Origin: Ponticaulis sp.
GTDB taxonomy: Bacteria > Pseudomonadota > Alphaproteobacteria > Caulobacterales > Hyphomonadaceae
DNA length: 64,000 bases
NCBI GenBank assembly: GCA_002723155.1
Contig: PBNO01000004.1
Span: 95,740 to 159,739, forward strand
Reading direction: 5' to 3'
Shown here one piece after another: positions 38,590-42,036 of the stretch. A program made the translations under genes and the position numbers. Under the pieces are notes generated by a model that saw only the letters and a program-made list of their open reading frames with translations, made no database searches and was not told the origin of the DNA. The first letter of the stretch is position 1; each line of letters starts with the position of its first letter.

Positions 38590-38629
38590 GTTCTCAAAAC
38601 CGGAATAAATTCAGAAGACTGAACAAATT

Positions 38630-38659
38630 CAGAGATCGATGAAATTTTATCGATCTCTG
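38630..38659. repeat. 11-bp perfect inverted repeat after the aldehyde dehydrogenase gene
   Basis: CAGAGATCGAT and ATCGATCTCTG pair exactly around GAAATTTT. There is no T-run, so it is either a factor-assisted terminator or a protein-binding palindrome in the flagellin upstream region. Confidence 0.45.
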
Positions 38660-38736
38660 GAACACTGAGTAAAATACTTGGTCTTATAGGAGGAAGTAGG
38701 AGGGGGACTCTGATTGGGTTCTCAGGACAATCTATG

Positions 38737-38757
38737 CACGTTCCAAAACGGAACGTG
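38737..38757 (+). promoter_or_regulatory. Flagellin leader hairpin
   Basis: CACGTTCC and GGAACGTG form a perfect 8-bp stem with an AAAAC loop, ending 17 bases before the flagellin ATG and just before its GGGCGAGG ribosome site. Flagellin mRNA in Caulobacter is controlled through its leader by FlbT/FlaF, so a similar use is possible here. Confidence 0.45.
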
Positions 38758-38774
38758 GTTAAGGGCGAGGCAGA

Positions 38775-39941
38775 ATGCTGAGCGTAAATACCAATTACGG
38801 TGCCATGACGGCACTGCAGAATCTATCTGCGACGTCTGCGGAGAAATCCCAGATACAAAGCCGGATCAATACCGGGCTTGCCGTGGCAAGCGCGAAGGAT
38901 AACGGCGCTATCTACGCTATCGCGAAAGGCCTCGACGCCGACATGGTTTCCGCCAGTGTCGAGCAGTCACAGCTGGATCGTGTTTCCTCAACACTCGATG
39001 TGACCCTGTCAGCGATTGATAGCATTTCCGATCTCATGATCGATATGAAGGAAAAAGCGCTCGCCATGACCGATGAGTCCATGACGTACGAGCAGCTGAA
39101 GGCCTTCAACGAAGATTTCAACGCGCTGTTTGATCAGGCGCAGACGGTTGCGCGCAACGCAGCCTTTAACGACATCAATCTGCTGGACGGTTCAACACTG
39201 ACACTGGAAACAACGTCGCTGAGCGTGATTGAAGGCTTCGACCTGGCGGACATTCTGGAGAATGGCGTCACGCGCACGGGCGACTTCGATGGCATTGTGA
39301 ACTCAAACCATAGCGCGACTGTGACGGGTAACTTTTCGGGTGTCGTGAATGGTACTTTCACCGGCACGACCTATGGCGACATGTCGGGCGTCGTGAATGG
39401 TGACTATAACGGTGACATTTATGGCGATTTCACTGGCAGTATTAACGGCAACATTAACGGCACGGTTTATGGCAGTGTCAGTGGTAGCGTGAACGGAAGT
39501 ATTACGGGATCGGTGCACAATGGATCCGTCACGCCGCCTGCAGAGGTGACGATCGAGGCTGCCGACCAGACGGCGGCGGATTATCTCGGCCGGACATATG
39601 GCGGCGTGGAGGGCTATGAAGAAGACCCGTTCTCCTTCGATCCGAAGCAGGACCTTCATTACCATTATACGGGCATGGTCGCCTCTATCGAGAACACGAT
39701 CTCAGGGCTGGCAAACTACTCGTCCAAGCTCGGCTCGATCGCCAAAGCCGCTGACATTCAGAACAATTTTCTGCAGATCAAGAATGACGTTCTGATGAAG
39801 ACGAAAGGCAATATGGTTGATGCGGATATGGCTCGCGAGAGTGCGCGTCTTTCTGCGATCCAGACCAAAGAACAGCTTGGTGTCCAAGCGCTCTCAATCG
39901 CCAATCAGGCACCAAATATGGTGCTCCGTCTGTTCGGCTAA
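38775..39941 (+). CDS. Flagellin with a tetrapeptide-repeat central domain
   Basis: Filament protein of the flagellum, 388 residues. The N-terminal D0/D1 helices (MLSVNTNYGAMTALQNL, INTGLAVASAKDNGA) and the C-terminal helix ending ALSIANQAPNMVLRLFG are alphaproteobacterial flagellin ends needed for export and polymerisation. Residues 170-249, the surface-exposed variable region, consist of twenty tetrapeptides of the form x-hydrophobic-x-Gly, grouped in five 16-residue units. This is unlike ordinary flagellin D2/D3 domains. After it comes an acidic, aromatic linker (YEEDPFSFDP). No other flagellar gene is in the window, so assembly genes must lie elsewhere. Confidence 0.9.
   Translation: MLSVNTNYGAMTALQNLSATSAEKSQIQSRINTGLAVASAKDNGAIYAIAKGLDADMVSASVEQSQLDRVSSTLDVTLSAIDSISDLMIDMKEKALAMTDESMTYEQLKAFNEDFNALFDQAQTVARNAAFNDINLLDGSTLTLETTSLSVIEGFDLADILENGVTRTGDFDGIVNSNHSATVTGNFSGVVNGTFTGTTYGDMSGVVNGDYNGDIYGDFTGSINGNINGTVYGSVSGSVNGSITGSVHNGSVTPPAEVTIEAADQTAADYLGRTYGGVEGYEEDPFSFDPKQDLHYHYTGMVASIENTISGLANYSSKLGSIAKAADIQNNFLQIKNDVLMKTKGNMVDADMARESARLSAIQTKEQLGVQALSIANQAPNMVLRLFG
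39282..39521 (+). repeat. Five 48-bp coding repeats in the flagellin gene
   Basis: Encodes residues 170-249 as five 16-residue units starting DFDG, NFSG, DMSG, DFTG and SVSG. Most units follow the pattern [D/N/S]-x-[S/T]-G, x-x-N-G, x-x-x-G, x-x-Y-G. Seventeen of twenty tetrapeptides end in Gly. Units differ at DNA level, so the array is old or under selection rather than a recent slippage product. The first unit is the most diverged. Confidence 0.85.
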
Positions 39942-39986: not shown

Positions 39987-40352
39987 ATGACAAATAAGTT
40001 TGATCTCGAGCCGGGTGACGTTGTCTCCGTGCGATTTGCGGGTGTTCTGCGCCACTACGGCGTCGTCACCTTTGGTGGCCGCATCGTGTCCAATAATGGC
40101 GAACGCGGCGGGGTCATCTCTCAGACCTTCGAAGAGTTTGCGCAGGGGCGCGAGGTGCAGGTCGATCCGCGACGGAGCTCTGCGGACGGCTATCACGCCC
40201 ACCATCATGCCCATCGCAGGTTGGGGCATGACTACCATCTGGCCGGTTCTAACTGTATCGATTTTGCACGGCATGCGACGCGCCGCTCACCGACTGTCAG
40301 CCAGTACGCACGCGGCACGTTCGAGACGCTGAAAGATATGTTTCGGCGTTAG
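39987..40352 (+). CDS. LRAT/NlpC-P60-like permuted papain-fold protein
   Basis: A 121-residue protein resembling lecithin:retinol acyltransferase-type (permuted NlpC/P60) enzymes. A His in GVLRHYGVVTFGG (residue 23) and a Cys in GSNCIDFARHA (residue 90) are in the order and sequence context expected for the catalytic pair. Between them is a His cluster (HAHHHAHRR). Such proteins act as acyltransferases, amidases or peptidases on lipids or peptides. No signal peptide. Its last four bases overlap the stop of the convergent thioredoxin lipoprotein gene. Confidence 0.68.
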   Translation: MTNKFDLEPGDVVSVRFAGVLRHYGVVTFGGRIVSNNGERGGVISQTFEEFAQGREVQVDPRRSSADGYHAHHHAHRRLGHDYHLAGSNCIDFARHATRRSPTVSQYARGTFETLKDMFRR

Positions 40353-40870: not shown

Positions 40871-40992
40871 AATGGCTCCCCGAAAATTCTACAGCCAATC
40901 AGTACGATGTGCGTGGCCATGAAGGGAAGGGCATTCTCAAATTAATGGGGGCTGCGACCAAATACGCCATGAAGATAGGCGCTAAATGGGTG

Positions 40993-41012
40993 TTATTGTA
41001 TAGTCACAATAA
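40993..41012. promoter_or_regulatory. Inverted repeat in front of the first DUF3775 gene
   Basis: TTATTGT and ACAATAA are exact reverse complements around ATAGTC, directly before the GAAAGGAG ribosome site of the gene at 41029. It could be an operator or a leader hairpin that leaves the ribosome site free. Confidence 0.4.
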
Positions 41013-41028
41013 AAGAAAGGAGACTGCC

Positions 41029-41493
41029 GTGAAGACGATTGATACCGGACCTAAGGTCGAGGAGCTGGGCGTCTCGGAGAACACGCTGGCTGCAATCATT
41101 CTTGAGGCCCGCACATTCGATGCGACCATGCCGGAAGTTGATGAGGATGAAGCGTCCAACGACGTCGATGATGACGAGATTTCCGTCCTTGAAGATCAGG
41201 ACGACAATCCTGCCCTTCAGGTGCTGATGGAAGCTATTAAGAGCCTCTCCATGGAAGAGCAGGAAACGCTGGTTGCGCTTGTCTGGCTTGGACGCGGTGA
41301 CTTTGATTCCGACGAGTGGGATGAGGCCCGCGCCATGGCTGCCGAACGCGATAATGGCGATGTGGCTGGCTATCTGGCAGGCATTCCAATGCTCGGCGAT
41401 TATCTGGAGGCTGGCGCCGATGCGCTGGGCATCAATCTGTCCGAGACAGAAGCGCAGACTATGTCGCATCCCCAGAAGCGCGCCGAATTCTAG
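41029..41493 (+). CDS. DUF3775 protein, copy 1
   Basis: A 154-residue acidic protein of the DUF3775 family. The core is LSMEEQETLVALVWLGRGDF followed by a Glu/Asp-rich helix and MLGDYLEAGADALGI. The GTG start at 41029 has GGAG six bases upstream; the frame is open further left but without a ribosome site. Function unknown. The next gene is a paralogue, 66 bases on. Confidence 0.8.
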   Translation: MKTIDTGPKVEELGVSENTLAAIILEARTFDATMPEVDEDEASNDVDDDEISVLEDQDDNPALQVLMEAIKSLSMEEQETLVALVWLGRGDFDSDEWDEARAMAAERDNGDVAGYLAGIPMLGDYLEAGADALGINLSETEAQTMSHPQKRAEF

Positions 41494-41559
41494 GCGCAGT
41501 CCTGAAACAATTTTTGCTCCTGCACGTTGGTTTCGCAGACGACAAAGCAGGAGCAAATT

Positions 41560-42036
41560 ATGAAAACCATTGAAACCGGCCCCTTGATTGATGACCTCGC
41601 GATTTCTGAAAACGCGCTGGCCGGTATCATTCTGAAAGCCAAATCCTTTGGCGCGATTGTACCGGAAAGTGATCCGCGCGAGTCGTCTAACGGGTCTGAT
41701 GACCGCATGATTGATGCGCTGGAAGACCAGCCGGACAATCCGGCACGGATGTCACTTGAGAAGACGATCAATAATCTAAGTGACGAGCAACGGAACACCC
41801 TCGTAGCGCTTACCTGGGTTGGTCGAGGTGACTATTCCGCTGTTGAATGGGCAGATGCGTTGAGCACTGCTCAGGCCCGCGACGGCACTGTGACATCGCA
41901 TTACCTTTCAGAGATGCCGCTTCTGGCAGATCATCTCGAGAATGGTGCCGCCGAACTCGGCATCAACGTGACGGACGCCAAAGCGGCGATCATGAGTCAC
42001 GATCAAAATCCGGATCCGATGCGCGCTGTAAAATAA
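41560..42036 (+). CDS. DUF3775 protein, copy 2
   Basis: A 158-residue paralogue of the preceding gene: both begin KTI-TGP, share LVALxWxGRGDxxxxEWxxA and LLADHLENGAAELGI/MLGDYLEAGADALGI. Identity looks moderate, so the duplication is not recent. AGGAG lies eight bases before the ATG. A shared or heteromeric role is an inference. The aldo/keto reductase follows on the same strand. Confidence 0.8.
   Translation: MKTIETGPLIDDLAISENALAGIILKAKSFGAIVPESDPRESSNGSDDRMIDALEDQPDNPARMSLEKTINNLSDEQRNTLVALTWVGRGDYSAVEWADALSTAQARDGTVTSHYLSEMPLLADHLENGAAELGINVTDAKAAIMSHDQNPDPMRAVK

Follow-up and report, generated by a model that had tools for sequence, protein, structure and literature searches.

An orphan flagellin of Ponticaulis carries a lineage-restricted glycine-repeat insert that is probably a small β-solenoid

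The outer domains of flagellins vary in structure and function between species and are not conserved (PMC8931119); elsewhere they dimerise into sheaths or ridges that aid swimming in viscous media, or serve adhesion (PMC8931119, PMC10256154). Flagellins of Sinorhizobium meliloti, enterohaemorrhagic Escherichia coli and Pseudomonas aeruginosa show an extra central domain on the filament, and these domains are not described as tandem-repeat solenoids in the accessible portions of PMC8931119 and PMC10256154. The short FljK/FljL-type flagellins of Caulobacter (PDB 6xl0, 8uxk) have chains of 270–271 residues. The closest recurring-coil analogue that we found is the central domain of ice nucleation proteins (INPs), with a 16-residue coil and Tyr at position 3 (PMC9418140, PMC10727499). 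Here we describe an orphan flagellin gene in a 64,000-nucleotide stretch (the window) of contig PBNO01000004.1 of Ponticaulis sp. Its product is ~115 residues longer than the Caulobacter chains and, like the three flagellins named above, would show an extra central domain on the filament: an array of Gly-spaced tetrapeptides that is predicted, and probably is, a small β-solenoid.

Judged by both terminal Pfam domains, the 388-aa protein encoded at 38775–39941 is a flagellin, as first proposed. PF00669 matches residues 4–140 (E 9.1e-24, 84.5 bits against a cut-off of 26.6) and PF00700 matches residues 304–387 (E 1.2e-14, 54.8 bits against 23). The variable region had also been placed correctly, between the two core halves, where outer domains sit. 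The gene is laid out as follows:

38775..39941, + strand: orphan flagellin gene, 388 aa, with PF00669 and PF00700 both above gathering score
38775..39218, + strand: N-terminal D0/D1 core, about residues 1–148, from alignment with shorter flagellins of the genus
39270..39317, + strand: degenerate first 16-residue unit, residues 166–181 (TRTG DFDG IVNS NHSA), with Arg167 at a hydrophobic position
39318..39509, + strand: four regular 16-residue units, residues 182–245, predicted β-solenoid, from column counts and structure prediction confidence
39510..39521, + strand: partial last unit SVHN, residues 246–249, from reading of the sequence
39522..39668, + strand: conserved linker back to the core, residues 250–298, from a 58-residue query (246–303) with matches in only 3 of 398 genomes of the order
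39669..39938, + strand: C-terminal D1/D0 core, residues 299–388, from PF00700 and paralogue alignment

The array, residues 166–249, reads TRTG DFDG IVNS NHSA / TVTG NFSG VVNG TFTG / TTYG DMSG VVNG DYNG / DIYG DFTG SING NING / TVYG SVSG SVNG SITG / SVHN. The original prediction saw twenty x-hydrophobic-x-Gly tetrapeptides in five 16-residue units at 39282–39521. Those coordinates are right and correspond to residues 170–249, and most of the pattern holds: 17 of the 20 tetrapeptides end in Gly (IVNS, NHSA and SVHN do not) and 18 have a hydrophobic second residue (NHSA and TTYG do not). Four units are regular (182–245), the remainder being the degenerate unit (166–181) and the stub (246–249). In the regular units of three orthologues (4 units in 3 genomes, n = 12) the consensus is [TD][VI]YG[DN]F[ST]GV[VI]NG[DN][FYI][NT]G. 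Gly occupies positions 4, 8 and 12 in 12/12 units and position 16 in 11/12. Asn at position 11, preceding Gly 12, is present in 12/12, which bears out a fixed Asn-Gly; Tyr at position 3, also expected to be fixed, occurs in only 9/12.

An 80-residue span contains 18 in-phase Gly; the highest count among 2000 shuffles of residues 166–253 was 11, and the runner-up among the 294 open frames of at least 80 aa in the window has 8. Self-identity of the three sequences is 0.51–0.57 at lag 16, 0.32–0.42 at lag 8, 0.32–0.41 at lag 4 and 0.03–0.08 at lag 5. Any two units share 6–10 of 16 residues at the protein level, and none of the 96 cells at hydrophobic or Gly positions of the regular units is charged; the degenerate unit has one charged residue there, Arg167. 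With periods of 4 and 16, such low lag-5 identity, and no GGxGxDxxx nonapeptides found on reading the flagellin sequence, the array is neither an RTX nor a pentapeptide repeat, as had been stated. Pentapeptide repeat proteins have a period of 5, whereas that of the array is 4 and 16, even though about four short repeats per coil are suggested for the flagellin too.

Among named records, the full-length sequences closest to the protein are the orthologues of Ponticaulis koreensis DSM 19734 (94% identity) and of the metagenome-assembled genome UBA1849 (88%). The array evolves faster than the remaining protein. Relative to UBA1849, 37 of its 84 residues differ, plus one gap, against 1/165 in the N-terminal part, 5/49 in the linker and 2/90 in the C-terminal part; for P. 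koreensis the differences are 15/84 in the repeat, 5/165, 2/49 and 2/90. Change follows the repeat frame. Over residues 182–248, Gly changed at 1 of 16 positions in UBA1849 and at none of 16 in P. koreensis (31/32 retained when pooled). Hydrophobic positions changed at 14 of 17 and 4 of 17, respectively; 13 of the former changes stayed within V, I, L, M, F, Y, W and 3 of the latter remained hydrophobic, so that 16 of the 18 changes kept a hydrophobic residue. So much change within a retained Gly/hydrophobic frame is not what one would expect of a disordered spacer. Disorder together with no conservation in relatives, the outcome that the original prediction had set against itself, is thus not what we observe in the two relatives in which conservation can be judged.

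The genome (3.84 Mb in 18 contigs) contains eight PF00669 matches, seven of them above the cut-off: five clustered on one contig (C14), one on another (C2), and the orphan alone on a third (C4). The eighth falls below the cut-off and appears to be the hook-associated protein FlgL. The full-length orphan flagellin is present in 3/7 genomes of the genus, and the 58-residue linker query found the same three among the 398 order genomes. The 96 distinct flagellin reading frames compared were collected for their similarity to the orphan gene, and some are truncated where a locus ends. Three of them have 387–388 aa and 93 have 177–303 aa; most related frames examined have 256–279 aa. Judged by length, 93/96 are too short for the insert, so the premise that flagellin variable regions are normally compact β domains does not suit these bacteria. 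In a tree of 85 frames of at least 255 aa the three orphan flagellins make up a single clade (100/100), whose long branch (1.54) meets the long branch of another frame (L064), making its placement unsure. In one further genome of the genus (G006) a different 276-codon frame lies between the aldehyde dehydrogenase and LRAT-like genes that border the orphan site, and the full-length gene search of the genus found no flagellin there; the orphan was therefore gained at this spot or lost elsewhere. The array is a real, conserved and lineage-restricted insert in an otherwise ordinary flagellin.

The repetition lies in the protein pattern and not in the DNA. A direct-repeat search returned no repeat families, Tandem Repeats Finder listed no tandem array there, and the four 48-bp units are identical to one another at only 21–30 of 48 bases. 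The number of units is constant in the three genomes, the one-residue gap of UBA1849 falling in the degenerate unit. The suggestion that 48-bp units vary in copy number between strains is not supported, because the unit number is the same in all three genomes known and the DNA units have diverged. Copy-number (phase) variation was rejected on the same grounds.

AlphaFold2 (AF2) predicts a solenoid with 16-residue coils for the array alone, with a predicted local distance difference test score (pLDDT) of 89.8 and a predicted template modelling score of 0.82, in agreement with the β-solenoid first suggested. Within the whole protein, block mean pLDDT is 77–91 over the regular units and falls below 50 at residues 251–301, around the linker. 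In a second look at the top PDB chains of Foldseek, the best low-rmsd (root-mean-square deviation) fold match was 3p4g, a Ca-dependent antifreeze domain from an Antarctic bacterium, at rmsd 2.9 over 88 residues with 19% identity, and bactofilins were also among the best (rmsd 2.8 over 86 residues). Several points weigh against a solenoid. AF2 is the one method behind it and is known to over-predict this fold, modelling perfect random repeats with high confidence as unrealistic solenoids, of which some stack charges in their interior (PMC11795689); the conservation comes from two relatives; Gly makes up 18/84 residues; and many of the sequence matches are of low complexity. The array might instead be a flexible Gly/Asn/Ser/Thr-rich spacer without a stable fold, its modelled solenoid an artefact of repetition. 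We regard this as unlikely but not negligible: Gly, hydrophobic, Asn and Tyr columns are conserved by position while the rest changes fast, and for four natural families with diverged repeats four methods agreed on a solenoid (PMC11795689). The imperfect units and the charge-free hydrophobic and Gly positions likewise favour a real solenoid, without proving it.

Other known repeat folds offer narrower explanations. That the solenoid is an ice-binding surface, like INP coils or β-solenoid antifreeze proteins, seems extremely improbable. It would draw on the shared coil length and Tyr at position 3 of the INP consensus AGYGSTQTAGEESSLT (PMC9418140, PMC10727499), on a Thr-x-Thr (TxT) motif in register in two successive coils (166–168, 182–184) in 3/3 genomes, and on the 3p4g fold match. 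Yet TxT stops after these two coils, and the array has only about five coils with Gly at every fourth residue, against ~50–80 coils in INPs; the INP of PMC9418140 became inactive when cut from 18 to 12 repeats and was partly active at 15. PF00818 is missing from the Pfam matches at E up to 10, so no Pfam link to INPs emerged; it was also unlisted in the own genome, in a search where no control matched either. The likeness to 3p4g is that of a β-helix; its entry title calls the domain Ca-dependent, whereas the flagellin array has no RTX-like motif. Ice or metal binding, as originally raised, is not supported, with TxT in two coils only and the RTX motif absent. It is also very unlikely that a flagellin captured a bactofilin-type domain capable of end-to-end polymerisation. 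Bactofilins form a small β-helix of ~3 nm (PMC12448750), as predicted for the array, and are among the best low-rmsd fold matches; PF04519 is matched below its gathering score (16.3 against 27.9 bits, E 0.012), and by 2/3 orthologues at E up to 1. However, bactofilins are triangular and ~110 residues long (PMC12448750), whereas the array has 16-residue coils with about four bridged sides, and the genome's main bactofilin has no profile similarity to it.

The gp5 spike of phage T4 is built of an octapeptide repeat. An intertwined trimeric β-helix of that kind, in place of a monomeric solenoid, is suggested by repeat-profile matches to gp5 chains in PDB (E 1.5e-4 to 0.0031) and to PHROG 430 (2.4e-4 for the domain, 2.7e-5 for the whole protein). 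These scores look compositional, since gp5 is outscored by a pyridoxal kinase (E 1.8e-8), a match that we take to be a Plasmodium low-complexity insert, and by an ARID-domain protein (E 1.9e-6). The strongest period of the array is 16 and not that of the octapeptide, although lag 8 is raised too, and intertwining would be difficult for subunits locked into a filament. We hold such a trimer to be barely plausible.

We give an even chance to the reading that the gene encodes a minor flagellin showing a short β-solenoid on the filament. The protein would enter the filament through its ordinary D0/D1 core, with the outer-domain position carrying, according to the model, about five coils of 16 residues (four tetrapeptides) each. 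Hydrophobic residues would pack the solenoid core, with the assignment of inside and outside faces tentative, Gly residues would leave room for tight turns or dense packing, and each coil would add one rung to a ladder of the invariant Asn and one to a ladder of the recurrent Tyr. Consecutive subunits would then coat the filament with short rigid rods. These would most likely act by contact, either between adjacent outer domains, making the filament stiffer or rougher as such domains do elsewhere, or with a surface; we infer that surface contacts are more likely than ice or metal binding. In INPs, dimerisation is proposed to occur through a Tyr ladder (PMC9418140, PMC10727499), and by analogy the Tyr ladder here may hint at side-to-side contacts rather than ice. 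An unlikely extension is that the two ladders join outer domains, or whole filaments, to their neighbours side by side, as in the proposed INP dimers; this would give a solenoid-coated filament, a new surface architecture for the flagellum.

In the part of the matches viewed among titles and abstract openings of the open-licence literature, we found no solenoid outer domain of a flagellin. The locus offers a separately sited extra flagellin with a minimal, highly regular candidate domain, in a group whose other flagellins mostly have no room for one. The candidate domain is small enough for expression alone. One carrier, P. koreensis DSM 19734, comes from a culture collection, is not known to be a pathogen and has several further flagellins, so the effect of an added outer domain could be tested cleanly.

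No profile relatives of the repeat were found outside the three genomes in class, order, phylum, plasmid, phage and viral searches, the class, order and phylum genome draws overlapping. In the class, 10/385 genomes matched at E up to 0.01, and 10 of the 12 matching places besides the gene were inspected (all except L074 and L076) and seem of low complexity or unrelated. In the order, 9/398 genomes matched at E up to 0.001; three are the orphan flagellins, and the rest, with a best E of 1.3e-7 in G002, are frames other than flagellins that are of low complexity or rich in Ala/Ser/Gly. In the phylum, 6/398 genomes matched at E up to 1e-4, and six of the seven new places, those inspected, are of low complexity; the seventh (L111) lies by its coordinates inside the frame of another (L105). 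The 72,556 plasmid records gave no match. Of 50,697 phage records, 65 gave matches with E no higher than 0.01; each of the 30 listed has E 5e-3, and the one inspected is annotated only as a structural protein. A pattern was fitted by 101 viral contig stretches, none of them a relative, and a viral fold library gave 235 matches when E was allowed up to 10, with none of them at 0.001. A Gly-zipper_OmpA match (19.7 bits, E 7.4e-4, cut-off 27; 1/3 orthologues) was set aside as matching one Gly-rich stretch. Descent from the genome's main bactofilin or from a second repeat protein was rejected for want of profile similarity.

Two other kinds of repeat protein were noted along the way. A 251-residue protein of the same genome (L103, C6:302805–303035) has hexapeptide repeats of type GNARVYGNARVSG and is perhaps another β-solenoid, unrelated by profile to the flagellin repeat. 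A secreted-looking Ala/Ser/Gly-rich repeat protein occurs in the window's genus and in other genomes of the order (L075, L080, L084, L085, L086); at the last four of these places it is followed by a frame resembling an outer-membrane β-barrel.

The intergenic region upstream of the flagellin gene, 38590–38774, folds better than all 200 shuffles (z = -5.75) and contains two inverted repeats:

38630..38659, no strand assigned: 11-bp inverted repeat with an 8-base loop upstream of the gene, identical in 3/3 genomes
38737..38757, no strand assigned: 8-bp inverted repeat immediately ahead of the start region; UBA1849 has one changed stem base, which in RNA could form a G-U pair

The region may serve as an operator, terminate the upstream gene or act as an RNA control element. 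It has no Rfam match, and no second copy was found in the genome at E up to 0.001. Its 185 bases show 13 differences from each orthologue, close to the rate in the aldehyde dehydrogenase gene next to it (110 and 100 of 1446), and the idea of unusual upstream conservation was dropped. Elsewhere, in Azospirillum, a minor flagellin is under an alternative sigma factor (PMC12826043). In a promoter comparison of the orphan with the clustered flagellins, four of the five clustered ones match a sigma-54-like core at 9/10 positions and the fifth at 6, while 5/400 random stretches reach 9; the best values for the orphan in the three genomes are 7, 8 and 7, inside the random range. EcfG scores upstream are at random level, and sigma-28 scores were taken without a random control.

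Downstream, 39987–40352 encodes a small LRAT-like protein (21.0 bits against the Pfam cut-off of 24.3) found in 7/7 genomes of the genus. Adjacent paralogous DUF3775 genes lie at 40909–41493 and 41527–42036, and other genomes of the genus also have frames resembling this pair beside their LRAT-like gene.
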